NCBI RefSeq assembly: GCF_003852405.1
Contig: NZ_QAJM01000003.1
Location: 1-64,000, forward strand
Direction of reading: 5' to 3'
Source of the DNA: Pseudomonas sp. KBW05
Lineage (GTDB): Bacteria > Pseudomonadota > Gammaproteobacteria > Pseudomonadales > Pseudomonadaceae
Length of the DNA stretch: 64,000 nt
In this document: piece after piece, positions 6,257 through 53,622 of the stretch
Layout of the letters: each line of letters begins with the position of its first letter
How positions within the stretch are numbered: the stretch's first letter is position 1
Program-made: the position numbers and the translations under genes
The notes under the pieces: generated by a model
What the model saw: only the letters and a program-made list of their open reading frames with translations
What the model was told of the DNA's origin: nothing
The model's database searches: none

Positions 6257-7315
6257 TTAGCCAGCGGCCGGTTCCTGCACGCCTTGAGTCTCCACCTCCA
6301 ACCACCACGCGTGCCCACGCTCAGGCTGACTCAAGCTGAACGCCTGGCCCATCGCCGGCGTGGTGATCGACACATTGCGCTCCCACGCCAGGGCCATGAT
6401 GCGGTCGAAGGGTTCGTGCCAGGCATGGAACGCCAGGTCGAACGTGCCGTTGTGAATCGGCAGCAGCCAGCGCCCCTTGAGGTCGATATGCGCTTGCAGG
6501 GTCTGCTCCGGCTGCATGTGTACGTGGGGCCAATCAACGTTGTAAGCACCCGTTTCCATCAGCGTCAGATCAAACGGGCCGTACTGCTCGCCGATGCGTT
6601 TGAAGCCATCGAAGTAGCCGGTATCACCACTGAAGAAAATCCGCCGCGCGCCGTCGATCATCACCCATGAGCACCACAGGGTCTGGTTGCCGTCAAACAA
6701 GCCACGCCCGGAAAAATGTTGCGCAGGCGTGGCAACAAAACGCACGCCATCGACCTCACTTCCCTGCCACCAATCCAGCTGCCGCACCTTCGCGGGATCG
6801 ACGCCCCACTTGACCAGAATGTCGCCCACACCGAGCGGTGCCAGAAACCAGCGGGTCTTCTCGGCCAATTGGACGACAGCCTTGTGATCAAGATGGTCGT
6901 AATGATTGTGGGAAAGAATCACTGCCTCCAGCGGTGGCAGCTCTTCAAGGCTGATGGGAGGCTGATGGAAACGCTTGGGCCCGGCCCAACTGAACGGCGA
7001 GGCACGCTCGGCGAACACCGGATCGGTGACCCAGAACTTGCCACGCATTTTCAGCAATACGGTGGAATGCCCAAGGCGAAACACGCTGTGGTCAGGGGCG
7101 GCCAGCAGTTGCTCACGGGTCAGCGGTTGCACCGGGATCTTGCCCACCGGTCGCGTACTGCGCGGCTTGTTGAACAACATGTTCCAAAAAATGCGCAAGG
7201 TCTTGCCAAACCCACCGTGCTGCACGGGAGCGTCGTTGCTGAAGTGGCTGTGTTCCTGCTCGGCAGGCTTACGCGCCTTGGACGAAGGGGCAACACGGGA
7301 TGAGATCGTGGCCAT
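6257..7315 (-). CDS. MBL-fold metal-dependent hydrolase (RomA/NAPE-PLD-like)
   Basis: 352 aa. The metallo-beta-lactamase zinc motif HNHYDH is at 136-141, followed by the later ligands in TPAQHFSGRG and FFSGDTGYF. The order and length fit the RomA/UlaG-like branch that also includes N-acyl-phosphatidylethanolamine phospholipase D; members act on phospho- or acyl-ester substrates, here unknown. About 50 residues precede the fold and contain no obvious signal peptide. It is divergent from the tetR gene at 7439 with two operator-like palindromes between, which suggests it is the regulator's target. Confidence 0.85.
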   Translation of the reverse strand: MATISSRVAPSSKARKPAEQEHSHFSNDAPVQHGGFGKTLRIFWNMLFNKPRSTRPVGKIPVQPLTREQLLAAPDHSVFRLGHSTVLLKMRGKFWVTDPVFAERASPFSWAGPKRFHQPPISLEELPPLEAVILSHNHYDHLDHKAVVQLAEKTRWFLAPLGVGDILVKWGVDPAKVRQLDWWQGSEVDGVRFVATPAQHFSGRGLFDGNQTLWCSWVMIDGARRIFFSGDTGYFDGFKRIGEQYGPFDLTLMETGAYNVDWPHVHMQPEQTLQAHIDLKGRWLLPIHNGTFDLAFHAWHEPFDRIMALAWERNVSITTPAMGQAFSLSQPERGHAWWLEVETQGVQEPAAG

Positions 7316-7347
7316 TACCAGGTGACTCCTACGGACCGCTCAAAAGT

Positions 7348-7363
7348 TACACTGCACAGTGTA
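7348..7363. promoter_or_regulatory. TetR-type operator 1
   Basis: TACACTGCACAGTGTA has perfect 7-bp arms with a 2-bp centre. It lies 33-48 bp before the start of the MBL gene and occupies the spacer after a TTGAAA -35-like hexamer on the minus strand (7365-7370). Confidence 0.65.
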
Positions 7364-7394
7364 GTTTCAAGATTGCAACAAAAGCCGGAACAAG

Positions 7395-7410
7395 TAAACT
7401 ACCGAGTGTA
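7395..7410. promoter_or_regulatory. TetR-type operator 2
   Basis: TAAACTACCGAGTGTA repeats operator 1 with one arm mismatch. It overlaps a -10-like TAAACT placed 16 bp after TTGCAA (7373-7378), 29-44 bp before the tetR start, and so would give autoregulation. Confidence 0.55.
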
Positions 7411-7438
7411 ATTTTCCCGAAAGAGCCCAACAACCGCC

Positions 7439-8065
7439 ATGACTGCCCCTCAACGCCTCACCGACCGCAAACGCGAAGCCATCGTGGCCGCCGCCATCGC
7501 CGAGTTTCGCGCTAACGGTTTCGAGGTCACCAGCATGGACAAGATCGCCGCCACCGCCGGCGTTTCCAAGCGCACCGTGTACAACCACTTCCCGAGCAAG
7601 GAAGAGTTGTTCGCCGAAATCCTTCACCAGCTCTGGGCCAGCAGCGTCGCGCAACTGGACGTGAGCTACACCAGCGACCGCCCACTGCGCGAACAATTGC
7701 GCGGGTTGCTACAGGCGAAGATGACCATGATGGCGGATGCCAATTTCCTCGACCTGGCCAGGGTCGCCATCGCTGCCACCATTCACTCGCCGGAACGTGC
7801 GCAAGATATGGTTACCCGCCTGAGCAAACGTGAAGAAGGTTTTACGCAGTGGGTCCGCGCCGCCCAGGAAGATGGCCGGCTCAGTTGCACCGACCCGGCT
7901 TTCGCTGCCCACCAGATCCAGAGCCTGCTCAAGGCGTTTGCGTTCTGGCCCCAGATCACCCTCGGCCAACCCACCCTCGACGCCGCCAACCAAGCCAGCG
8001 TGATCGAGTCGGCCATCGACCTGTTCCTGGCCGGCTACGAAGTGCGCCCCGCTAAGCCGTTGTAA
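7439..8065 (+). CDS. TetR/AcrR family transcriptional regulator
   Basis: 208 aa. Residues about 10-56 are the TetR N-terminal HTH (IVAAAIAEFRANGFEVTSMD, then KIAATAGVSKRTVYNHFPSK). The rest is the all-helical ligand/dimer domain; the region around LSKREEGFTQWVRAAQEDG resembles the AefR-like C-terminal type. The gene faces away from the MBL hydrolase, and the 123-bp gap carries one palindrome in front of each gene, so it likely represses both. The ligand is unknown. Confidence 0.9.
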   Translation: MTAPQRLTDRKREAIVAAAIAEFRANGFEVTSMDKIAATAGVSKRTVYNHFPSKEELFAEILHQLWASSVAQLDVSYTSDRPLREQLRGLLQAKMTMMADANFLDLARVAIAATIHSPERAQDMVTRLSKREEGFTQWVRAAQEDGRLSCTDPAFAAHQIQSLLKAFAFWPQITLGQPTLDAANQASVIESAIDLFLAGYEVRPAKPL

Positions 8066-8251
8066 ACCAATCGTCGAAACGACATCACGGGTCGCTTTTG
8101 ACGCATTCGCCCTCTGTTTTGCGCAAATGGCCTGTAAGGCCACTGATTATTGCGTTGCAAATAACTGACAATAATCAACGTATTATCCGATCAACGGTGA
8201 ACCCGGGATCGCGCACTGTTGCATCTGCAAAATTGAGCTGACTCAGAATCT

Positions 8252-9310
8252 ATGGAAAACAGACAGGGCAAAGGACTTTCGTTTGCCAAGCGTATCTACA
8301 AGCCAAGGATTATTGGCCTGGGCATCGGCAGCATCAGTGTCGCCGCCGCCCTATACCCGCTGGCCATGCCCGGCTGGATCTGGGCGTTCCTGCTGTTCAA
8401 CGGCTTTGCCTGGGCGCACGTGGCGTATCAACTCTCAACCCGTGCCCAATTCCCCTACCAGGCCGAACAACGCAACCTGCTCTACGACTCGTGTTTCGGT
8501 GGGTTCTGGGCGGCTGCCACCCAGTTTACGCCCCTGACCGCCGTGACAATCCTGTCGATGATGGCCATGAACAACGTCGCCGCTGGTGGCAAGCGCCTGT
8601 TCCTGCGCGGCCTGCTGGCACAGGCCGTTGGCGTCGCCGCCGCATGGCTATTGTTCGGCGCCCGATTCAATGCGGATGTCAGCCTGCTCCAGGTCTATGC
8701 CTGCCTGCCGATGTTGACCCTCTACCCCATGGCCATCGGTACCGTCTGCTATCAATTGGCGATAAAGCTGTCAGAACACAAGCGCGCCCTCAGCGCGCTG
8801 AGTCGCACCGACAGCCTCACCGGCCTGCTCAACCATGGTTCCTGGAAAGACCTGCTGCACATCAAGTTCCACAAGTGCCAGCAACAACAGAGCCATGCCA
8901 CCATCGCCCTGATCGACATCGACCACTTCAAACAGATCAATGACACCCACGGGCACATCGTCGGTGACGCGGTCCTGCGCCAACTGAGCCTGGAACTGCG
9001 GCGCAACCTGCGGGAAAACGACTTGGCCGGGCGTTACGGTGGCGATGAGTTCTGTGTGATTCTTCCGCAAATGCCGTTGGAAGATGCCGCGCAAGTGATG
9101 GAGCGCATGCGCGAAACATTCGGCAACTACCGCAACCCGCAAATTCCTGAATTGCGCGTGAGCTTGAGCATCGGCCTGGCCGATTTCCAGCCCTGCTTCA
9201 GCGATGCCGCCATGTGGCTCAACGCCGCGGATCGTGCGCTGTACGCCGCCAAAGCCAGCGGCCGCAACCGGGTCAATGTCAGCGACTTTCCCGTCGCCCA
9301 TTCGGCCTAA
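8252..9310 (+). CDS. Membrane diguanylate cyclase, MASE2-GGDEF
   Basis: 352 aa inner-membrane enzyme that makes c-di-GMP from two GTP. The N-terminal half (about 14-170) has several hydrophobic spans and the FAKRIYKPRIIGLGIG opening of the MASE2 sensor. The GGDEF domain (about 185-345) has DSLTGLLNHG, DIDHFKQINDTHGH, and an intact GGDEF active site near 263. An RxxD inhibitory site (REND) ends five residues before GGDEF, so product feedback inhibition is expected. The 186-bp upstream region holds no clear regulatory motif beyond a short TGGCC/GGCCA hairpin at 8128-8142. Confidence 0.93.
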   Translation: MENRQGKGLSFAKRIYKPRIIGLGIGSISVAAALYPLAMPGWIWAFLLFNGFAWAHVAYQLSTRAQFPYQAEQRNLLYDSCFGGFWAAATQFTPLTAVTILSMMAMNNVAAGGKRLFLRGLLAQAVGVAAAWLLFGARFNADVSLLQVYACLPMLTLYPMAIGTVCYQLAIKLSEHKRALSALSRTDSLTGLLNHGSWKDLLHIKFHKCQQQQSHATIALIDIDHFKQINDTHGHIVGDAVLRQLSLELRRNLRENDLAGRYGGDEFCVILPQMPLEDAAQVMERMRETFGNYRNPQIPELRVSLSIGLADFQPCFSDAAMWLNAADRALYAAKASGRNRVNVSDFPVAHSA

Positions 9311-9533
9311 GTTGTCCTACGACACCTCGTCTGAATTTCCTACCCACCGCCCACGGCGATAGCATAATGCCGCCATTGGTCGCCTCCGGTGAAAAGTGCC
9401 TGCCCCTGGCCGAACTTCTGACGCACCGCGCGACTCTGAAGCCGTTGTTCCACCCCTGCTGTCAGCACCCGGAAGCTGACAATGAGCACGTCAACCGTAG
9501 CGTCAGGCGCTCTACGGGGGCAGGCGACTTTGC

Positions 9534-10892
9534 ATGGATAACCCCGAAGCTTGCTTGCCCGAGCACCCGAATATGCTATTCAACGCCCACAAAAAAACCA
9601 TCGCTACCCTGCAACACACGGTGGCGCAACAGGCCAGCCTGCTGGACGCCATCGAGCGCTCCATGGCGGTCATCGAGTTTGACCTGCAAGGCAACGTACT
9701 GCGGGCCAACGACAACTTCCTCAAGGCCATGGGCTACCGTGCCGAACAGATCCTGGGCCAATCCCACCGGCTGTTCTGCACGCCCGTATTCGCGCGCAGC
9801 GCCGAGTACAGCCAGTTGTGGACGAACCTGCGCAATGGCCAATTCCAATCCGGCACGTTCGAACGTGTGGCGGGCACCGGTCAATCGGTGTGGCTTGAAG
9901 CCAGCTACAACCCGGTACGTGACGAGGCCGGCCGCGTGGTCAAAGTGGTGAAGTACGCCATGGACGTCACACCACGCATGCAGGCCGAAAGCGAAGCCAA
10001 CGCCAAGTTGGATGCCATCGGCCGCGCAATGGCGGTGATCGAGTTCAACCTCGACGGCACCATCATCACCGCCAATGAAAATTTCCTACAGCGCATGGGC
10101 TACAGCCTCACCCAGATCCAGGGCCAGCATCACCGCCTGTTCTGCACGCCGGAATTGGCCAACAGTTCGACCTACAGCGACTTCTGGCGACGCTTGAACC
10201 AAGGCGAGATGTTCAGCGGCCAGTTCGAACGCCTGGATAAACAGGGCCACACCGTGTGGCTCGAAGCCAATTACAATCCGGTGTACGACGCCAGCGGACG
10301 CCTGTGCAAAGTGGTCAAGTTCGCCTCCGACGTCACCGCCATGGTGCAACAGCACAGCGCCGACGCAGCCAGCGCGGCCCAGGCCTATCACATCTCCCTG
10401 AGCACCCGCGACATCGCGGAAAAAGGTGCCGAGGTGATACAGCAAACCGCCAGCGGCATGCGGGAAATTGCCGCCGACATTGACGGATCCTCCCAATTGA
10501 TCGCCAAGCTCGGCGAGCGCTCACAGCAGATCACCGCCATCGTCAATACCATCCGTGGCATCGCCGACCAGACCAACCTGCTGGCGCTGAACGCCGCCAT
10601 CGAAGCCGCGCGAGCCGGCGAGCAGGGCCGGGGATTTGCCGTAGTGGCCGATGAAGTACGGCAACTGGCGGCACGCACCAGCGGTTCCACCGCCGAAATC
10701 TCCAGCATGATCGCGATGATCCAGGACGAAACCCGCCAGGCCATCCACAGCATGGACGGCACCCGCGACCGCGCCGCGCAAGGGGTCGACCTGGCCAACC
10801 GCGCCGGCACGGTGATCCTGCAGATTCGTGAAGGCACCAGCGAGGCGGTACAGGCGGTGAGTGCGTTCGCCAATGAACGCGGCGGCAGCTGA
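9534..10892 (+). CDS. BdlA-like soluble PAS-PAS chemotaxis transducer
   Basis: 452 aa with no transmembrane span. Two tandem PAS domains (about 37-150 and 160-272) each contain MAVIEF, AN(D/E)NFL, HRLFCTP and WLEA(S/N)YNPV(R/Y)D segments. A methyl-accepting signalling domain follows with the CheA-contact hairpin [20 protein letters not shown] near 345-364. This architecture is that of BdlA, which couples c-di-GMP to biofilm dispersal in P. aeruginosa. It sits directly after a diguanylate cyclase gene. Start 9534 is used; an ATG at 9573 (MLFNAHKK) is nearly as good. The 223-bp gap in front holds no recognised element. Confidence 0.85.
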
Positions 10893-10969
10893 CCCGATCT
10901 TCATGCGTAGGGGCCGAGGGCTCGGTCTATAGTGATTGCCTGTCTCTATGTTGATGATCCGAGCCCGCC

Positions 10970-11488
10970 ATGACCCCAGATAAACCCGAAGTCGACCACC
11001 TGCGTTTTCACCGCCCCCACGCCCACCTGGCGCCGACCTTTGGCAACGACACCTTTGCCCTCAAGGCCGAAGCCTTCGCGCGGTTCTTCGGCACACCGAC
11101 CTTCCTTGGTGCACAGACCGCCATCGTGGTGTTGTGGGTGGTGCTGAACATGACCGGCGTCACGCACTTTGACGTGTACCCGTTCATCCTGCTCAACCTG
11201 GCCTTCAGCCTGCAATCGGCCTACGCCGCGCCGTTGATCCTGCTGGCCCAGACGCGCCAGGCCGCACGCGACAAAGCCCAGTCCGACGCCGACGCGCAGC
11301 ATCGCGAAGCCTTGGCCGTGGCCAACACCGAACGTCAGGCCCAGGCCGCGCAGACCACCAAGCAGTTGCTGGAATTGCTGGAGCAAAACACCCGCCTGAC
11401 GGAAATGACCAAACAACTGACCGAGCGCATCGAAACCCTGACGTGTGAAATGCACGAGCAGTTCGTACGCAAACCCCAAGACCACTGA
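10970..11488 (+). CDS. DUF1003 membrane protein
   Basis: 172 aa. Two adjacent hydrophobic spans (about 45-66 and 69-92: AIVVLWVVLNMTGV, FILLNLAFSLQSAYAAPLIL) with the conserved FDVYPFILLN linker identify DUF1003. The C-terminal third (about 95-165) is a long charged coiled-coil stretch rich in Ala/Gln/Glu. Function of the family is unknown; it is probably an inner-membrane protein with a cytoplasmic helix. It is followed at once by a REP pair. Confidence 0.82.
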   Translation: MTPDKPEVDHLRFHRPHAHLAPTFGNDTFALKAEAFARFFGTPTFLGAQTAIVVLWVVLNMTGVTHFDVYPFILLNLAFSLQSAYAAPLILLAQTRQAARDKAQSDADAQHREALAVANTERQAQAAQTTKQLLELLEQNTRLTEMTKQLTERIETLTCEMHEQFVRKPQDH

Positions 11489-11496
11489 TGAACCCT

Positions 11497-11586
11497 TGTG
11501 GGAGCGGGCTTGCTCGCGAAGGCGGTGTTTCAGTCACCTGATGTACTGGCTGACCCACCGCTTTCGCGAGCAAGCCCGCTCCCACA
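11497..11586. repeat. REP inverted pair (BIME)
   Basis: GTGGGAGCGGGCTTGCTCGC and its inverse, about 40 bp apart, form a long hairpin between the convergent DUF1003 and LysR genes, where it probably also helps 3'-end formation. Confidence 0.93.
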
Positions 11587-12471
11587 TTAGATTTGTGTTG
11601 TGCTTACGGCCTTGCCCAACTCATCAAACAACGTCACCACCGAGCGCAACGCCCGGCAATCGGGGCGGGTGAGCAGCCACAGCGCCGTATCATGCCCGGC
11701 CAACGCCGGTCCCAACGGTTGCAACCCGTCATCCAACAAGAAATCCGGCAACGCCGCCACGCCCAGTCCTGCGCGCACCAGTTCGCTGACCGACAACATG
11801 CTGTTGCAGCGGTAACTGAGGCGTACACCCGGCAAATGCTCGCGCCGCCAGACGACCGTCGGGTGATCCGGCAGGAAGTCGTCCGGCGCGATCCACGCCA
11901 ACTCAGCCAGCTCACGGCCCGCGTGCTGGCGGGCATAAGCCGGACTGGCGCAGACCTGATAGGCGACCTCACCGAGGCAGCGTCCTACAAGATGTTCCGG
12001 CGGTGTCTTGGTCAGGCGCAAGGCAATATCTGCATCGCGGCGGCTGAGGTTGGCGAAGTCATTCGAGGTACTCAGTTCCAGGGTCAGCGCCGGGTAATCC
12101 GGCATGAACTGCGCCAGCGCCGGCAGCAACAGACCTTGCAACACCGAGTCGGTACAGGTCAGGCGCACGGTGCCGCTGATCACTTCACCGCCCTGCTCCA
12201 CGCCAATGCGCGCCGCCTCCAGGGCTTGTTCGGCACGCTCGGCCTGCTGCGCCAAGTCCCGGGCCAGGCTGGTGGGCAGATAGCCCGTGCGGTTTTTTTC
12301 AAACAGAGTCTGGCCCAGCGCCGCCTCCAGGCGCCGCACCGCGCGAAACACCGTAGACACATCCACACGCAACAACCCCGCCGCGCGCGCCAGGGTGCCA
12401 CCGCGTACCAGCGCGAGGATCAGCGACAGGTCCGCGTGTTCGATTTGATAGTGCGTTACTGCATTGAACAT
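11587..12471 (-). CDS. LysR family transcriptional regulator
   Basis: 294 aa. The N-terminal winged HTH (about 10-65: LILALVRGGTLARAAGLLRV, then DVSTVFRAVRRLEAALGQTL) is followed by a periplasmic-binding-like effector domain (about 90-285). The ATG at 12471 (MFNAVTHYQIEH) matches where LysR proteins begin; the much longer open frame upstream is not LysR-like. Divergent, 80 bp away, is the glutaminase-like/monooxygenase operon, its likely target. A conserved (T)VFRAVRRLE replaces the common V-S-x-x-I-x-x-LE. Confidence 0.88.
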   Translation of the reverse strand: MFNAVTHYQIEHADLSLILALVRGGTLARAAGLLRVDVSTVFRAVRRLEAALGQTLFEKNRTGYLPTSLARDLAQQAERAEQALEAARIGVEQGGEVISGTVRLTCTDSVLQGLLLPALAQFMPDYPALTLELSTSNDFANLSRRDADIALRLTKTPPEHLVGRCLGEVAYQVCASPAYARQHAGRELAELAWIAPDDFLPDHPTVVWRREHLPGVRLSYRCNSMLSVSELVRAGLGVAALPDFLLDDGLQPLGPALAGHDTALWLLTRPDCRALRSVVTLFDELGKAVSTTQI

Positions 12472-46304: not shown

Positions 46305-46425
46305 TGTGGGAGCGGGCTTGTGTGGGAGCGGGCTTGCTCGCGAAGGCGGTGGGTCAGACAGAACATCTGTGCCTGATACACCGTATTCGCGAGCAAGCCC
46401 GCTCCCACACAAGCTCGCTCCCACA
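46305..46425. repeat. REP inverted pair with both heads duplicated
   Basis: TGTGGGAGCGGGCTTG occurs twice in a row on the left and its inverse appears twice on the right (the last copy reads CAAGCTCGCTCCCACA). It lies between the convergent GST and OpuAC genes. Confidence 0.92.
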
Positions 46426-46441: not shown

Positions 46442-47446
46442 TCAGAGCGCAGCGTTGACCTTGGCCGCCACCTCCGCTGGCACCCACTGCTGCCACACCT
46501 GCGGCTGCTCCTTGAGGAATGCCAAGGCCACCTGGCGCGGCGATGTGCGCTTCTCGCTCATGTCCGCGAGGATGCCGTTGAGTAGATCAATCGGCAGGTC
46601 GACCTTTTCAAAGAAACTCACCAGCTGCGGGTACTGCGCCTTGAACGGCGCCGACACGCCAATCGCCAGCTGCGCCGGCATTGAGCGGGTGCCGATGGGG
46701 TTGGGGTTTTTCGCGTCGGCCAGCGTCTTCCAGGCGTCGGCGTTGAACGCCGGTTCTTCCAGCTTGATCAGCTTGAAGCGCCCCAGCAGGGGCGTCGGCG
46801 ACCAGTAGTAGAACAACACCGGCTTGCCGCGCCGGATCGACGAGGCCACTTCCGCATCCAGCGCCGCGCCGGAGCCTGTGCGGAAGTTGACGAAGCTGTC
46901 GGTCAGGCCGTACGCCTTGATCTTCTGGCTGTTGACGATTTCCGAGGTCCAGCCGGTGGGGCTGTTGAGGAAGCGCCCGCGGCTCGGGTCTTCGGGGTCG
47001 CGGAACACGTCCTTGTAGCGCGCCAGGTCGGCCACCGACTTGAGGTCCGGCGCCAGGGGCTTGATGCCGCGCGCCGCGTCGCCCTTGATCACGTATTCGG
47101 GCACCCACCAACCTTCGGTGGCGCCTTTGACCGTGTCACCGAGGCCGAACACTTTGCCTTCGCTTTCAGCCTTGACCCACGCCGGACTGCGCCCGGCCCA
47201 TTCTTCGCCGATCACCTGGATATCGTCCTTGGCCAGGGCGGCTTCGAGGCTCACGGTGCTGCCGGGTAAGGTATCGGTGGGCAGGCCGTAGCCTTTTTCG
47301 ACGATCAGGCGCAGGACTTCGGTGATCAGGCTGCCGCTTTCCCACGTGATGTCGCCGAAGTGGATCGGCGCGGCGGCGTGTGCCGGCTGGGCCAATAGCG
47401 TCAGTGCGAGCAGCGAGCCACCCAGTAGGTTTTTCAGTCTTTTCAT
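46442..47446 (-). CDS. Periplasmic OpuAC-type substrate-binding protein
   Basis: 334 aa. A signal peptide ([20 protein letters not shown], then PAHA near 24) precedes the glycine-betaine/proline-betaine type binding domain (IHFGDITWESGSLITEVLRL, IGEEWAGRSPAWVKAESEGK, TEGWWVPEYVIKGDAARGIK). Tryptophans in the W-E-S, GEEW and EGWW segments could form the aromatic cage seen in quaternary-amine binders. No permease or ATPase gene is adjacent. It starts 58 bp after the TonB receptor stop on the same strand, so it is probably in the same ECF-controlled transcript. GAGG is 6 nt before the ATG at 47446. Confidence 0.82.
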   Translation of the reverse strand: MKRLKNLLGGSLLALTLLAQPAHAAAPIHFGDITWESGSLITEVLRLIVEKGYGLPTDTLPGSTVSLEAALAKDDIQVIGEEWAGRSPAWVKAESEGKVFGLGDTVKGATEGWWVPEYVIKGDAARGIKPLAPDLKSVADLARYKDVFRDPEDPSRGRFLNSPTGWTSEIVNSQKIKAYGLTDSFVNFRTGSGAALDAEVASSIRRGKPVLFYYWSPTPLLGRFKLIKLEEPAFNADAWKTLADAKNPNPIGTRSMPAQLAIGVSAPFKAQYPQLVSFFEKVDLPIDLLNGILADMSEKRTSPRQVALAFLKEQPQVWQQWVPAEVAAKVNAAL

Positions 47447-47504
47447 GCAGAACCTCGTGTTGATGATCGTTCCCCCGCAAGCGTGGGAACGAGCGGTGGA
47501 CCGG

Positions 47505-50129
47505 TTAAAAGTCATAACTGAGTCGCGTGTAGTAAAACGCCCCTTCCGGCGCCGCCGGCGACAGGTAGCTGTACTGTTGGCCCGGGGTCTGGCGCAGGCG
47601 GCTGTTGAAGTCGTCGGGCTTGCTGTCGAACAGGTTGTTCACGCCCACTGACACGCGTAGCTGTTGGCTGAACGCGTAGTTCACGTCCAGGTCGGTGGTC
47701 CACTGCGCGCTGAAGGTCTGGTCGTAACGGGCGTTGGCCTCAGACGCCGCGTATTTGCGGTATTTGCCGTAGCGGGTCTGGTTGAGGGCGATCGTCCATT
47801 GGTTGAGCTTGTGCACCGCGCCAAACACCAGTTTGTCCTCGGGATAACCATGCTCGATAAACCCTCGGGCTTCACGGGTCAGTACTTCGAAGCCGTTGGG
47901 GTTCTCGTGGACTTTCTCGATGGTGGTCCGTGCCTTGGTGTAACCCGCCGACAGGTTCAAGTCACCGAACTGTGCGAGGCCCAGGTTGTACTTGCCGACG
48001 ATATCGACGCCACGGGTGCGGGTGTCTGCGGCGTTGGTCATGAACTGCGCCCAGGAATACTGGCCGTAGCCGGCATTGGTGAGAATCTGCTCGGCCAACG
48101 GCCCGGAAATACCACCGCTGAACACCAGCCGGTCGCGGATCGCGATCTGGTAGGCATCGATGGTCAACGACGCATGCTCGCTAGGACGCAGCACCAGGCC
48201 GAGGGAGTAGTTGGTGGACTTCTCCGGCTTGAGCGGCTGCGCGCCAAGGGCCCGGGCTGCCGGGTTGTCGGCCGGCAACATGCGGGTCAGCACCGGGTTG
48301 CCATTCACATCCAGGTTGGTGGTGGTGGTCCACGACGTGCCGATCTGCCCCAGGCTCGGCGCATGGTAGGCGTTGTTGATCGTGCCGCGCAGCGCCACTT
48401 GCGGCGTGAAGTCATAACGCGCCGAGAGCTTGCCGGTGGTGGCCGAGCCAAAATCCGAGTAGTGCTCGGTGCGCCCGGCGAGGCCCACTTGCAGCTGGTC
48501 GGTAACCTGGTTTTCCAGGCCGAAATACACACCGCCCACATCGCGCTTGAAGGTGCCAGCATCGTCCGGGGTCAGGCCGGACGCCTGCACTGCGCCCACC
48601 TGCACGTTGTCGATGCCGCCGTAGGAGTAGGAATCGTAGTCGCCGGCCTCCAGACGGTATTGCTCGTGACGGTAGGCCACTCCGGCAGAGACGGTCAGCG
48701 GATGACTGGACCAATTCACATCAAGGTCTTTGGCGTAGTCGAGGGCGAGGTTGGTCTGCTCGTTGACCAGGGTGGCGACGTTGAACTTGGTCGGGCTGTT
48801 GGCGCCGTAGCTCGGGTTGACGGTGTTGAAGGCCAATTCATCGTGCTCGTCGCGCCCGTAGGTGGCACTCAAGTCGAAGCGGCCGAGACTGTCGTCTTCA
48901 TACCGGGTGCCCAGCGTAATGGCGCCGTCTTCATAGCGGTAGCGGTACTTGGGAATCGTGCCGTTGGGGTAGATCGACGCCACGTTGTTGGGGCTGCTCG
49001 CCAGCAGCGGCGGCGTGTTGTTGACCGACGTGTCCTGGCCGAATGTGGCGAAACTGTAGACGCGCCACTGATCATTCAGGCCGATCTCGGCATTCGCCGC
49101 CAGGTTGTATTTATCCCGCCCGGCACCACCCCAGCGCGGGTCTTGCACGCGGCCGTCGGCCACATATTTGTCGCCGATATCGTCGGGCTTGTTATTCAGC
49201 GTGTTGAAGCTCAGGGTCAGGAAGCCATCCCCCGGCAAGCCCACGCCGTACCAGCCATCGGTGGTCTTGCTGAAGCCATCGCCCTGGGCGTATTTGCCCA
49301 GCTGGGTGTTGATGCCACCACCGCTGTCGCGCTCCTTGAGCACGATATTGACCACACCCGCCACCGCATCGGAACCGTATTGCGCCGAGGCGCCATCGCG
49401 CAGCACTTCGACGTGGTCGATGGCGCTGATGGGGATCATATCCAGGTCCACCGGCTGCGCACCGATAAACGGCACGCCGCCGGAAATGTTCACCACCGCC
49501 GAGGTGTGCCGGCGCTTGCCGTTGATCAGCACCAGCGTCTGGTCAGGCGACAGACCACGCAGGGACGCGCCCTTGGGGTCCTGGCCACGGGTGGCGCTGT
49601 TGTTCTGCGGAAAGTTGAACGACGGCAACAGTTGGAACAACGCCTGGTTGAGACTGGTGGCACCGGTTTGCTTGAGTTCTTCAGCGTTGATCACATCCAC
49701 CGGCGCGGCGCTGGCCAGGGCAGTGGCGTCACTGCGCCGGGTGCCAATGGCGACCACGCGGTCCAGGGTCGGCGCCTGGGCGGCACGGGTTTGCGCCTTG
49801 ACGTTGCTATCCGCGCTCTCCTTGATGATGAACGCACCGTCCGGGCTCACTTGGACCTGTAGGCCGGTGCCCTTGAGCGCGGCGTCCACCGCCTGCTGCG
49901 CCGACAGCGAACCGTCCACGCGGGCCGAGGAATAGTCGCCCAGTTGCGGCGTAAACGAGATCACCTGGCCGCTTTGGCGGCTGATGTTCAGCAGCACTTC
50001 ATCCAGCGGGCCAGGGGCGATGTGGTAGACCTGGCGCGTATCGGCGGCGCTGGCGGCGAACGACCACAACAGGCTGGCCAACGGCACCAGGGCAAAGGTT
50101 CGAAGCGGCACACGGTTGAACTGACTCAC
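47505..50129 (-). CDS. TonB-dependent outer-membrane receptor with STN signalling domain
   Basis: 874 aa. A signal peptide (VPLRTFALVPLASLLWSFAA, near 7-28) is followed by an STN domain (about 35-86: YHIAPGPLDEVLLNISRQSG) that contacts FecR, a TonB-box-like DRVVAIGTRR, a plug (about 115-230, SDAVAGVVNIVLKERDSGGG) and a 22-strand barrel ending in YTRLSYDF. It takes up a ligand and reports it to the sigma/anti-sigma pair directly upstream. The ligand is unknown. The start is GTG at 50129 with GGAG 6 nt upstream; the longer open frame before it is non-coding leader. Confidence 0.9.
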   Translation of the reverse strand: MSQFNRVPLRTFALVPLASLLWSFAASAADTRQVYHIAPGPLDEVLLNISRQSGQVISFTPQLGDYSSARVDGSLSAQQAVDAALKGTGLQVQVSPDGAFIIKESADSNVKAQTRAAQAPTLDRVVAIGTRRSDATALASAAPVDVINAEELKQTGATSLNQALFQLLPSFNFPQNNSATRGQDPKGASLRGLSPDQTLVLINGKRRHTSAVVNISGGVPFIGAQPVDLDMIPISAIDHVEVLRDGASAQYGSDAVAGVVNIVLKERDSGGGINTQLGKYAQGDGFSKTTDGWYGVGLPGDGFLTLSFNTLNNKPDDIGDKYVADGRVQDPRWGGAGRDKYNLAANAEIGLNDQWRVYSFATFGQDTSVNNTPPLLASSPNNVASIYPNGTIPKYRYRYEDGAITLGTRYEDDSLGRFDLSATYGRDEHDELAFNTVNPSYGANSPTKFNVATLVNEQTNLALDYAKDLDVNWSSHPLTVSAGVAYRHEQYRLEAGDYDSYSYGGIDNVQVGAVQASGLTPDDAGTFKRDVGGVYFGLENQVTDQLQVGLAGRTEHYSDFGSATTGKLSARYDFTPQVALRGTINNAYHAPSLGQIGTSWTTTTNLDVNGNPVLTRMLPADNPAARALGAQPLKPEKSTNYSLGLVLRPSEHASLTIDAYQIAIRDRLVFSGGISGPLAEQILTNAGYGQYSWAQFMTNAADTRTRGVDIVGKYNLGLAQFGDLNLSAGYTKARTTIEKVHENPNGFEVLTREARGFIEHGYPEDKLVFGAVHKLNQWTIALNQTRYGKYRKYAASEANARYDQTFSAQWTTDLDVNYAFSQQLRVSVGVNNLFDSKPDDFNSRLRQTPGQQYSYLSPAAPEGAFYYTRLSYDF

Positions 50130-50197
50130 TTTGGCTCCCCCCAAGAGAACGCGATAACGCTGCTCCCCGCAGCGCTTACGGGAGTGATGTGAAATAG

Positions 50198-50226
50198 CGC
50201 GGGGAAAACTTGCAGATCGTTTGGTT
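50198..50226 (-). promoter_or_regulatory. Shared ECF-promoter-like motif, receptor copy
   Basis: On the minus strand the 29-bp element reads AACCAAACGATCTGCAAG and onward to CCCCGCG. It is 26/29 identical to 53594-53622 before the desaturase gene. It lies in the 141-bp gap between fecR and the receptor gene, 69 bp before its start. The layout AACCAA-17 bp-CCCGCG could be a -35/-10 pair for the adjacent FecI-type sigma. Confidence 0.65.
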
Positions 50227-50270
50227 ATGTCCTTAGAACCTGCCCACATTGGTTGGCGTCGTTGCGACAG

Positions 50271-51209
50271 TCAGGTGGCACTGACGGTTACCCATAACCC
50301 TGTGCGCCGAGTGATGCGGATCGGCAAGGTGCGCGCCAGGGTGTCGAGGATCTGCTCGGGGTTGTCCAGGCGGTACAGGCCGCTGACGCGCAGCTCGGCC
50401 ACTGCCGGGTCCAGGCGCAGCACGCCGCGGTGATAGGGGCGCAGCGCCTCGATGACCTCCGTCAATGGGCGGTCGCGCACTTGCAGGAAGCCCTCCACCC
50501 AGGCCGTGGCGCCGGAAGCACTGGCGGCTACCGGGCCGAAGCCGTCGCGATCGAAATGCACTTCATGGCCCGCCGCGAGTTGCAGGCGTTCGCCGCGCTG
50601 GCTGTCGATTTCCACCGCGCCATTGAGCGCGACCACTTGCCCCTGCCCTGCCCGCTCACGCACCAGGAAACCGTTGCCGTAGGCCCGCAGGCGGGTCTGT
50701 TCGGTCTGGATCAAAAAGGGCCGCATGCGGTCGCTGGCGACCTTGGCCAGCAACTCACCCTCGCGCAAGCGCACCAGGCGTTGTTGTGGGTCAAACAGGA
50801 TGTCGGCCGCGCTTTGCGCGTTGAGCAGCAACTCGCTGCCGTCAGCCAGCGTCACCGTACGCCGTTCGCCGGTGCCGGTGCGGATGTCCGCCGTGAGCTG
50901 CGTCAGGCCCGTGGGCTTGGCCAACAGTGCCGCGCCGACCGCCACGCCCGCACCGACCAGCACGACTTGCAACACGTGGCGCCGACTGGACGGTGCCTCC
51001 AGCGCCTGCTGCAAGACTTTGCCGCTCACGCCTTGGGCCTGAGGAACCTGGAACACACCGAGGCTCACTTCCAACTGCCGGCACAACGCATCGTGGCGTG
51101 GGTCGGCCGCACGCCATTGTTCATAACGCTGCCAGTCCCCCGCCGTGGCCTGGCCGGAGCGCAACAGCACATACCAACGCGTGGCGCTGTCGATCAGTGC
51201 GTCGCTCAT
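50271..51209 (-). CDS. fecR: FecR-type anti-sigma factor
   Basis: 312 aa. The N-terminal cytoplasmic sigma-binding part (SATRWYVLLRSGQATAGDWQ, then RYEQWRAADPRH) is followed by one transmembrane span (about 85-104), a FecR domain (VTLADGSELLLNAQSAADIL) and a C-terminal STN-like domain (LTEVIEALRPYHRGVLRLDP). It transmits receptor occupancy to the sigma factor. The ATG overlaps the sigma stop (ATGA). Confidence 0.92.
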   Translation of the reverse strand: MSDALIDSATRWYVLLRSGQATAGDWQRYEQWRAADPRHDALCRQLEVSLGVFQVPQAQGVSGKVLQQALEAPSSRRHVLQVVLVGAGVAVGAALLAKPTGLTQLTADIRTGTGERRTVTLADGSELLLNAQSAADILFDPQQRLVRLREGELLAKVASDRMRPFLIQTEQTRLRAYGNGFLVRERAGQGQVVALNGAVEIDSQRGERLQLAAGHEVHFDRDGFGPVAASASGATAWVEGFLQVRDRPLTEVIEALRPYHRGVLRLDPAVAELRVSGLYRLDNPEQILDTLARTLPIRITRRTGLWVTVSAT

Positions 51210-51715
51210 TCCAGGCACAACCGCAGGCAACGGTTGAAGGCACGGGTCATGTAATCACTGACCGAGCGCTGGGAGATACCCAATTCGGCGGCGATTTGCG
51301 GGTAAGTCAGGCCATTGAGCTGGGACAGCAGGAAGGTCGCCTTGACCTTGGCGGGCAAGCCGTCGAGCAACTGGTCGATGGCTTGCAGGGCTTCGAGCAT
51401 TTGCGCCAGGTCTTCGGGAGACGGTGCGCTGCAGGTCTCATCGTGATCGAGGGCATCAAGGTAGGCGCGTTCCAGATCACGGCGGCGCCACAGCTGGTAC
51501 ATCAGGCGCTGGGCGATGGTGGTGAGCAAGGCGCGGGGCTGGCGGATCGGCAGCCGGTCCGGCGACGTCAGCAGTTGGACGAACGTGTCGGCCGCAATGT
51601 CTTCGGCATGGGCGCGGGAATCGAGGTGGCGGTGCAGGCGGCCGCACAGCCAGTCGTAATGGCTGCGGAACAATCCGCCCACGTAATCGCTGTGAGAACT
51701 GTCGGCGCCGGACAT
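51206..51715 (-). CDS. fecI: FecI-type ECF sigma factor
   Basis: 169 aa. Region 2 (GLFRSHYDWLCGRLHRHLDS, then RAHAEDIAADTFVQLLTSPD) and region 4 (LPAKVKATFLLSQLNGLTYP, then QIAAELGISQRSVSDYMTRA) are typical. GGAG lies 6 nt before the ATG. No copy of the shared motif precedes it; instead a very AT-rich 50-bp segment (51783-51831) supplies a likely housekeeping promoter. Confidence 0.92.
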   Translation of the reverse strand: MSGADSSHSDYVGGLFRSHYDWLCGRLHRHLDSRAHAEDIAADTFVQLLTSPDRLPIRQPRALLTTIAQRLMYQLWRRRDLERAYLDALDHDETCSAPSPEDLAQMLEALQAIDQLLDGLPAKVKATFLLSQLNGLTYPQIAAELGISQRSVSDYMTRAFNRCLRLCLE

Positions 51716-51782
51716 AGTGGCTCCATCTGAGTAGGTTGCGCGTTATGTCCGGTGTTCCGGTGGGGCGATCCTAGCAAGGCTG

Positions 51783-51831
51783 CTTATTCTTTTATAATAT
51801 TTAAAAGGTATTTTTATATAACTTTATTTAA
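51783..51831. promoter_or_regulatory. AT-rich segment before the fecI gene
   Basis: About 50 bp made almost entirely of A and T, with TATTAT and TTATAT hexamers, in a window of high GC. It overlaps the end of the upstream PhnD-like gene and probably contains the sigma gene promoter. I see no good 19-bp Fur box in it. Confidence 0.45.
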
Positions 51832-52615
51832 GCACCAAGTAGCCGGCACTGGCGGCTTGCTGCTGGTAGTCCAGGAGCACTTGGTAGTCGTCTTCGCTGG
51901 CTGGCAAGACTTCCCGCACCCCCAGGGTTTCCACGACCTGCGGCAAATCCTGCAACGCCAGGTTCATCGCCTCACGAATCCTTGCGACCTGCGCATCGCT
52001 CAAGCCCAGCGGGCCGATATAGGGCAGCGTCGGGCTCGGCGCGCTGCGGGTGACGAGGCGCAGCCCTGCGACTTCGTCAGGGGCGAAGCGCGCGAGGTAG
52101 TCGTAGGTGACGCTGTCGATGGCGCCGAGGTCAGCGCGGTTTTCCCGCAGCCAGCGCAAGCTCTCGCGGTGGGCGCCGCTGATGGCGACGCTGGCAAAGA
52201 AACGGCCGTCGCGTTGCCAAGGGGCCAAGCGTTCGCGCAGCAGGTTCATGCCGCTGTTGGAGTCGTGGCCGTTGATCACGCCACGGCTGTTGTAGAAATC
52301 GGCCAAGGTGCTGCGCGGGTTGTCGGCCTGGGTCAGCAGCAGGCTGCAATGTTCACCCTGGCTGCTGTGGGCGAGTTCATAGCGGGGACGGCCAATGACG
52401 CGGACCTGGCCGCGCAGCTGGGTCATCAGCGGATAGCCGCAGGTTTGGCTCACAAGCAGTTCGGGGGCAAGCCACAGGCTGCGCAGGTCCAGATGATCGG
52501 CGTTGCGACGTTTGAGACCCAGCCGTTCGAAGATACGCGCCAGCCACTCTTGGTTGGCGTGTTGGATTGGCTCGGGCGCCACATACATCAGCAACTCGGC
52601 GTAGTGCTCACTCAT
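51824..52615 (-). CDS. PhnD-like substrate-binding-fold protein without signal peptide
   Basis: 263 aa. A periplasmic-binding-protein type 2 fold of the phosphate/phosphonate group: LLVSQTCGYPLMTQL, VINGHDSNSGMNLL, VAISGAHRESLRWLRENRAD and LGAIDSVTYDYLARF. The N-terminus MSEHYAELLMYVAP is not a signal peptide, so the protein is probably cytoplasmic and acts as a ligand-binding or enzymatic domain instead of an ABC-transport partner. It starts 9 bp after the desaturase stop, so both are co-transcribed. Confidence 0.8.
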   Translation of the reverse strand: MSEHYAELLMYVAPEPIQHANQEWLARIFERLGLKRRNADHLDLRSLWLAPELLVSQTCGYPLMTQLRGQVRVIGRPRYELAHSSQGEHCSLLLTQADNPRSTLADFYNSRGVINGHDSNSGMNLLRERLAPWQRDGRFFASVAISGAHRESLRWLRENRADLGAIDSVTYDYLARFAPDEVAGLRLVTRSAPSPTLPYIGPLGLSDAQVARIREAMNLALQDLPQVVETLGVREVLPASEDDYQVLLDYQQQAASAGYLVLK

Positions 52616-52624
52616 GCTTGTCTC

Positions 52625-53554
52625 TCATGCAAAAGGATGGCGCGGGCTGTCGATGGCCTTGAGGGCGTGGCGGCTGATCAACTGCCCGTAGCCCTGCACC
52701 AGGAAACCACCGCTGCGCGCCAGCCACTGCTCGCGGCGGGCACGGTAGACCGTGGGCAGAAAATACCAGGGCAGCTTCGGCAAGTCGTGGTGCACCAGGT
52801 GCAGGTTGTTATTGAGGAACAACCAGGACCAGGGCCAGGCCGCTTCGTTAAGCACGGTACGTTGCTCGGGTTGCGGGTGCGGGCGATGTTCATAGTAGGA
52901 ACGGATCGACGCCAGGGACAGCGCCGGCACGCTGACCAGCAGCAGGTAATGCCACACCGACAGTGCGCTGTAGTGGGCGATGAAACCCAGCATCAACAGG
53001 GTGATGGCGCCATGGGTCAACCACATCGGCCAGGCCTGGGGCAGGCGCCGCCATTCATGGCGCGTCAGGCGTGCTATTGCCAACGGCGCAGCCAAGAGGA
53101 CGCGACCGAGTAGGGTCTTGGTCAACCAATGGATGCCGCGTTCGAACAGTGAGCTGTGGTCCCACTGCTGTTGGTTGAGGTAGCGGCTTTCCGGGTCGAT
53201 GCCCGGCAGGGTCAGGTCGTCGTCGTTGTGGTGCAGCAGGTGGCTGTCGCGGTACAGGGTGTAGGGGTACCAGACGGCGAACGGCGCGTAACCGAGGAGT
53301 TTGTTGAGCAGCAGCGAACGGGTGGGATGGCCGTGGAGCAATTCGTGCTGCACCGACAACCACAGCGTCACCAGCGGGATCAGCAATAGGATGCTCAGCC
53401 ACAGGCCCAGCCAATGGCTGCCAAGGATCACGGCAAACCAGCCGGCATACACGCCGATCAGCAGCAGCCAGGTCGGCCATTCGGTCTTGGCGGTGAAGCT
53501 GTGCGCCAGGGCTTGGATTTCCTGGCGGTGGTTCGGGTCAAGGTAGTGGGCCAT
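52625..53554 (-). CDS. Fatty acid desaturase-family membrane di-iron enzyme
   Basis: 309 aa. Three histidine boxes (HELLHGH, HLLHH, HLVHHDLP) and about four to five hydrophobic spans match the membrane desaturase/hydroxylase family. Substrate unknown; such enzymes act on fatty acyl chains, alkanes or related lipids. It is preceded by a copy of the 29-bp motif and a leader hairpin, followed by the PhnD-like gene. Confidence 0.85.
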   Translation of the reverse strand: MAHYLDPNHRQEIQALAHSFTAKTEWPTWLLLIGVYAGWFAVILGSHWLGLWLSILLLIPLVTLWLSVQHELLHGHPTRSLLLNKLLGYAPFAVWYPYTLYRDSHLLHHNDDDLTLPGIDPESRYLNQQQWDHSSLFERGIHWLTKTLLGRVLLAAPLAIARLTRHEWRRLPQAWPMWLTHGAITLLMLGFIAHYSALSVWHYLLLVSVPALSLASIRSYYEHRPHPQPEQRTVLNEAAWPWSWLFLNNNLHLVHHDLPKLPWYFLPTVYRARREQWLARSGGFLVQGYGQLISRHALKAIDSPRHPFA

Positions 53555-53562
53555 CGTCAGCT

Positions 53563-53585
53563 CAGAGCAGGTGTTTCCTGCTCTG
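53563..53585 (-). promoter_or_regulatory. Leader hairpin before the desaturase gene
   Basis: CAGAGCAGG (minus strand) and CCTGCTCTG form a perfect 9-bp stem with a 5-nt loop, ending 8 nt before the ATG. Its loop-side GGA may make it a post-transcriptional control site. Confidence 0.45.
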
Positions 53586-53593
53586 TGCCGTGA

Positions 53594-53622
53594 CGCGGGA
53601 AAATCTTGCAGATCATTTGGTT
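53594..53622 (-). promoter_or_regulatory. Shared ECF-promoter-like motif, desaturase copy
   Basis: Minus strand AACCAAATGATCTGCAAG, through to TTCCCGCG; differs from the receptor copy at only three of 29 positions. It is 40 bp before the desaturase ATG. Confidence 0.65.

Follow-up and report, generated by a model that had tools for sequence, protein, structure and literature searches.

A putative FecI-type sigma factor regulon in Pseudomonas sp. KBW05 and its relatives, with an optional surface-signalling part

Introduction

FecI-type sigma factors are usually described together with a FecR regulator and a TonB receptor. In this work we focused on six contiguous genes in a 64,000-nucleotide stretch of Pseudomonas sp. 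KBW05 (contig NZ_QAJM01000003.1, positions 1 to 64,000, hereafter the window), which encode a fatty-acid-desaturase-like enzyme (DES), a PhnD/AioX-like binding fold (PHN), a FecI-type extracytoplasmic function (ECF) sigma factor (SIG), a FecR-type regulator, a TonB receptor (TBDT) and an OpuAC-type binding protein (OPU). Taken as a whole, the locus is likely to be a small regulon under the control of a FecI-type sigma factor of its own, in which the sensor is optional. Its core is DES–PHN–SIG–OPU, and gene order and fused gene tails show that FecR and the receptor have been deleted repeatedly in relatives while SIG and the metabolic genes stayed. An initial annotation of the window, which read the six genes as one ECF regulon, is partly supported; what is new is that relatives have repeatedly lost the surface-signalling half and kept the sigma factor, and the predicted promoter of the sigma gene itself had been missed. 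A literature search, with most subscription journals outside its reach, found no paper on this cluster.

Methods

Two samples were compared. One scan of named genomes gave 134 DES relatives, and the 80 best of them, each with at most 10 kb of flanking DNA per side, make up the loci (L numbers); all titles were Pseudomonas, and as the loci were picked by DES similarity, DES is present by construction. The relatives set (G numbers) held 96 genomes, namely KBW05 itself, 59 of the same genus and 36 of the order. The first motif block was located as the best match to TCTGCAAG with at most 2 mismatches within 160 bp, so that part of its sameness stems from this choice, of which the CACA block was not a part.

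Ratios of nonsynonymous to synonymous substitutions (dN/dS) were calculated pairwise by the Nei-Gojobori method for pairs with a dS of 0.1-1.2. The presence of FecR and the receptor was followed on a rapidly built tree, based on at most three neighbouring genes and covering 75 loci and the window. Twelve loci with receptor paralogues were picked from the best matches and from the KBW05 genome.

Results

The leaders of DES and TBDT carry an element of 29 bp, which the initial annotation had described as the same in both. The two copies are identical at 26 of 29 bases. A search of the window for their merged pattern, with 3 mismatches allowed, gave no third copy, and 100 shuffles gave none; at the same tolerance, a 22-bp part of the element occurs at these two sites only in the 6.5-Mb genome. 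The element lies in an ungapped repeat of 42 nt with 79% identity, and the conserved unit extends to a CACA block 10 bp beyond it, while its AACC start is not kept in many species lacking FecR. The element is half of a fixed-spacing motif, TCTGCAAG-N17-CACA, present at one spacing in 80/80 DES leaders and in all 13 receptor leaders with an intact start. Three parts of the motif never vary among the DES leaders, namely CTGCA, the G that closes the first block, and CACA; the first T and the seventh base of that block are kept in 94% and 96%, respectively. Exact matches to AANNATCTGCAAG-N17-CACA number 23 in the 96 genomes; by their coordinates, 22 are DES or receptor leaders of carriers, and the last, in a genome with no full DES (G058), stands directly before a 19-residue DES stump, a relic. 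One-mismatch sites were found together with a 35-residue DES stump in G006, and at one and the same chromosomal spot in G002 and G005. Four carriers have inexact sites only (G029, G037, G044, and G020 with two).

Of the 60 same-genus genomes, exactly 21 carry SIG (at least 57% identity); these are the ones with DES (at least 62%), and the two genes are adjacent each time. Six further genomes carry DES at 55-60% without such a SIG, and the motif is absent from the DES leaders of all six (4 or 5 of 12 positions wrong, within 250 bp). The specificity of the motif and this co-occurrence make a single sigma regulon spanning receptor and desaturase well supported by comparative genomics, and the genome comparison which the initial annotation had proposed for that idea came out in its favour, the motif following the sigma gene. 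PHN and OPU also occur without DES and SIG (G022, G023, G026, G050), in three of these genomes beside the usual neighbours.

Of the 80 loci, 13 have FecR and the receptor between SIG and OPU. In 59 loci SIG is followed by OPU after 21-232 bp with neither gene present, and the remaining 8 (L039, L041, L046, L048, L058, L074, L101, L111) lack OPU or SIG or are cut by the contig end, as L074 is. A receptor of at least 81% identity was found in 8/60 same-genus genomes, always at this locus, the next best reaching 50%. For FecR, a search at an E-value of 1e-50 in 38 same-genus genomes, including 9 of the 14 carriers without a full FecR, gave best matches of 41-44% or nothing. In five loci (L034, L041, L044, L050, L053) the sigma frame ends in TRLSYDF, the last codons of the receptor, so that FecR and the receptor were deleted there and a gain instead of a loss is ruled out; L033 and L091 have worn versions of this tail at the end of SIG. 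The distribution of the two genes needs 8 changes on the tree, 4 of them forced by starred branches, and for the large FecR-less clade gain and loss are both possible. The receptor, which had been proposed as part of the regulon, probably belongs to it as an optional member. In P. agarici (L058) only a short start of FecR is left, and the receptor has lost its STN domain while keeping leader, plug, barrel and motif; SsuA (395.6 bits, cut-off 299) takes the place of OPU.

The end of SIG shows two further peculiarities. Many FecR-less loci (e.g. L056, L081 and L104) share a C-terminal tail, RSQALC..HSANQ..RSA, that the SIG of the window does not have. In L048 the frame continues to 223 amino acids into other sequence and OPU was not found at the locus, perhaps a deletion scar.

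SIG has a predicted promoter of its own, ATTATT-N5-ATAA-N6-TTGCTA, found with at most 2 mismatches in 76 of 77 loci; the 80 DES leaders of this locus sample lack it, their best match having 5 mismatches. At the same tolerance it stands directly at DES in 5 of the 6 genomes that have DES without SIG, which suggests that whatever acts on DES directly in those species may act on SIG in the others. The copy in the window is the sole match in its genome. At one mismatch or less, 24 matches were found in same-genus genomes. Of these, 19 precede SIG and 3 precede DES; one is in G031, where the position taken by the locus in other genomes has none of its genes any more, and the last is somewhere else in G009. 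Other genera add 10 matches. A sulfur-starvation operator was considered: the SIG promoter motif at up to 4 mismatches was not enriched among 18 loci that hold DES relatives or paralogues of the receptor (5 matches against 2-6 in shuffles), and control by CysB is for that reason only a thought. Between this motif and the SIG start, at ~51737-51760 on the minus strand, lies a conserved repeated ACCGGA, whose GGA repeats we take to resemble RsmA-type sites.

The six genes lie on the same strand in the order DES, PHN, SIG, FecR, TBDT, OPU (Table 1), and profile matches agree, the STN domain excepted, with the families to which the initial annotation had assigned them.

Table 1. Genes and promoter-like motifs of the locus, with positions in the window
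Feature	Position	Strand	Basis or remark
DES, membrane di-iron enzyme, fatty-acid-desaturase superfamily	52625..53554	-	Pfam PF00487, 101.8 bits (cut-off 29.7)
PHN, PhnD/AioX-like binding fold, apparently cytosolic	51824..52615	-	Pfam PF12974, 50.2 bits; model; fold matches
SIG, FecI-type ECF sigma factor	51206..51715	-	Sigma70_r2 and r4_2; NCBIfam NF008889, 195.4 bits (cut-off 181)
FecR-type sigma regulator	50271..~51209 (start assumed at 51209)	-	Pfam FecR, 70.7 bits; DUF4880, 44.1 bits
TBDT, TonB receptor, STN-like signalling domain	47505..~50129 (GTG start assumed)	-	Pfam barrel and plug above cut-off
OPU, OpuAC-type binding protein, signal-peptide-like start	46442..~47446	-	Pfam OpuAC, 187 bits; best solved structure 7YLE
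TCTGCAAG-N17-CACA before DES, promoter-like	53584..53612	-	overlaps 29-bp element 53594-53622
TCTGCAAG-N17-CACA before TBDT, promoter-like	50188..50216	-	overlaps 29-bp element 50198-50226
ATTATT-N5-ATAA-N6-TTGCTA before SIG, promoter-like	51772..51798	-	1 mismatch here; at most 2 in 76/77 SIG leaders

SIG scores 164 against the strict FecI equivalog NF041727 (cut-off 260) and is therefore not the E. coli-type FecI itself. The FecR of the window combines an N-terminal anti-sigma DUF4880 with a FecR domain. The STN domain of TBDT falls below its cut-off (21.5 against 28.4 bits) and is in the expected place, at residues 58-102; a longer ATG frame of TBDT, to 50249, would span the 29-bp element. 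On a tree of neighbouring genes the nearest named loci are those of P. canadensis, P. reactans and P. aylmerensis. Behind OPU, at 46305-46425, lies a large imperfect inverted repeat with two 56-nt arms (89% complementary), which resembles the REP-type repeats of Pseudomonas.

The three histidine boxes of DES (H70, H74, H76; H105, H108, H109; H252, H255, H256) are invariant in 32 aligned sequences; a structure model of this protein was too poor to be used (predicted local distance difference test, pLDDT, 44). PHN gave a two-lobed binding fold (pLDDT 86), closest to AioX, ArrX and PhnD, and scored 26 bits against the PhnD equivalog (cut-off 261). By eye it has no hydrophobic leader, its first strand already lying at residues 3-7. 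Of the two binding folds in the initial annotation, PHN alone thus looks cytosolic, whereas OPU is probably periplasmic, its signal-peptide-like start again being judged by eye.

The best solved structure for OPU is 7YLE, the dimethylsulfoniopropionate (DMSP)-binding protein DmpX (phmmer E 2.7e-34). Seven of the eight DmpX pocket residues, as given in PMC10030565, are kept in 73/73 OPU proteins (72 loci and the window), and the eighth, Ala153, is Thr in all 73.

DES matched 86 plasmid records, all below 60% identity, of which six regions were opened. Those of Erwinia, Klebsiella and Rhizobium carry DES-PHN with an ATP-binding cassette (ABC) importer and a flavin monooxygenase of the NtaA/DmoA or LLM type, that of Phaeobacter has DES without PHN near a carnitine 3-dehydrogenase, and the unannotated records of Burkholderia and Caballeronia have a PHN relative near DES. 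In G040, G023 and G051 DES lies near OpuAC- or SsuA-type importer genes; G040 (L208, 1978-8426) has one same-strand run of DES, a ProV-type ATPase, a permease, OpuAC, a DmoA/NtaA-type monooxygenase and PHN, with no sigma gene. Receptor paralogues lie near sulfonate-type binding, permease or monooxygenase genes in 7 of the 12 loci (L243, L246, L249, L250, L251, L252, L253) and have no clear neighbours of this type in the other 5. One of these loci, L252 (G051, ~6453-11671), holds a SIG-FecR-receptor set (52%, 31% and 39% identity) next to genes of the SsuA, permease and ATPase types and is a candidate for surface signalling directed at sulfonates.

From the OPU pocket and the neighbours in other genomes we infer that the ligand is a small methylated ammonium or sulfonium compound, perhaps an organosulfur solute. 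The initial annotation had thought of a lipid-linked or a quaternary-amine compound, and the latter side of that guess gains some support. The former gained none: a lipid as ligand or substrate was set aside because DES-PHN accompanies ABC importers and flavin monooxygenases in three other genera and DES of G040, G023 and G051 lies near importer genes of the OpuAC or SsuA type. MocD, the rhizopine oxygenase, is presumably a demethylating relative of DES.

Discussion

In the mechanism that we favour, a regulator unlike Fur would turn on SIG through the conserved promoter of the sigma gene. SIG would then read the two-block motif before DES, giving DES, PHN and, probably by read-through, more SIG, and the same motif before the receptor, giving receptor and OPU; both steps are suggested by sequence conservation. 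In the species of the window FecR and the receptor, to judge from their families, would supply sensing of the outside in the manner of ordinary cell-surface signalling, whereas relatives lacking it may run DES-PHN-SIG-OPU as one unit. As the least certain step, the proteins would most likely capture a small methylated solute, an ammonium or sulfonium compound, and oxidise it; the solute may be an organosulfur source. A further-reaching version, in which the freed sigma factor forms a self-amplifying relay, ligand sensing has moved inside to PHN and surface signalling is a removable plug-in, seems improbable at present.

Several observations weigh against such a regulon, and some of them favour other explanations. 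The sigma factor of FecR-less species could be a decaying leftover, held open by its closeness to the OPU start. The dN/dS of SIG is 0.27 without FecR and 0.13 with it, so that relaxed use is possible, while DES (0.15, 0.17), PHN (0.17, 0.18) and OPU (0.09, 0.14) show no comparable rise; in addition, the C-terminal ends of SIG vary widely and its stop overlaps or nearly touches the OPU start in many loci. Both ratios are nevertheless well below 1, the DNA-reading helix LGISxRSVxxY is present in 78/78 sigma proteins (77 loci and the window), and the same species keep the motif core invariant and, in all loci but one, the SIG promoter. The sigma factor is thus constrained, if faster evolving without FecR, and its decay is unlikely.

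The motif might also be the operator of another regulator, e.g. of the LysR type, with the sigma gene merely travelling along. L101 (PHN, SIG and OPU not found at the locus) and L111 (SIG not found at the locus) keep the motif. As to the regulon itself, the identity of the two blocks as -35 and -10 is assumed and their promoter role predicted, and at 2 mismatches the motif has 27 matches in its own genome against 4 for the reversed pattern, which may mean more targets or a bias of composition. Against an operator, exact matches are confined to SIG carriers and one relic, DES leaders without SIG lack the motif, its two short blocks, a constant distance apart and closely upstream of the genes, look like a promoter, and no other regulator gene accompanies the locus in the locus comparison, the only place where one was sought. 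We consider this explanation quite unlikely. An ordinary iron-carrier surface-signalling system with passenger genes is very unlikely, for although its FecI, FecR and TonB receptor families are present and the best solved relatives of the receptor are, if weakly, siderophore receptors, no Fur-like box was seen in the three window leaders (best 10/19 in each, background mean 9.4, with the Fur consensus as we assume it), FecR and the receptor are lost while the rest stays, and most receptor paralogues sampled lie beside sulfonate-type genes.

Natural deletions have provided closely related species with the sigma factor alone, with sigma factor, FecR and receptor, and with sigma factor and a receptor devoid of STN (P. 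agarici). This set is suited to asking for what purpose FecR is needed, what restrains the sigma factor in its absence and by which route a branch of signalling becomes rewired, for which the predicted sigma promoter found directly on DES offers an example. For the conserved DES-PHN pair, which has no known function in the records examined, the locus also supplies a defined motif and a class of ligands open to testing.

The locus resembles FecI/FecR/FecA signalling in the order of its genes for sigma factor, FecR and receptor, the last with a putative STN domain, and in a predicted sigma-type promoter before the receptor. It differs in that the same motif also precedes an enzyme and a cytosolic binding protein, that FecR and the receptor are missing in most loci and that the window leaders have no Fur-like box. 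The contention of the initial annotation that standard FecI/FecR units control only a receptor was too strong: according to PMC9249621, E. coli fecABCDE stand in tandem behind one FecI-dependent promoter, and according to PMC2729926, PUMA3 (VreA/VreI/VreR) of P. aeruginosa governs a two-partner secretion system along with further genes. The former also describes fecIR as not autoregulated, whereas SIG has its own presumed target upstream of it. PUMA3 is likewise a surface-signalling sigma system controlling more than a receptor, but its FecR-like regulator is kept and required for sigma activity (PMC2729926), which makes easy FecR-free work less likely, and its receptor has no barrel, while that of P. 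agarici keeps the barrel and has lost STN.

Orphan OpuAC proteins that share one permease are known in Pseudomonas. OPU, which has no permease gene beside it in the window, is like the binding protein of DmpXWV in its four-Trp cage and in the Thr, Glu and Tyr of the pocket, and unlike it in its distant sequence and in the Thr at Ala153. The importer/monooxygenase modules of Erwinia, Klebsiella, the Rhizobium plasmids and G040 share the DES-PHN pair, G040 adding OpuAC, but have no sigma factor, FecR or receptor, and the pair bears no named function in those records.

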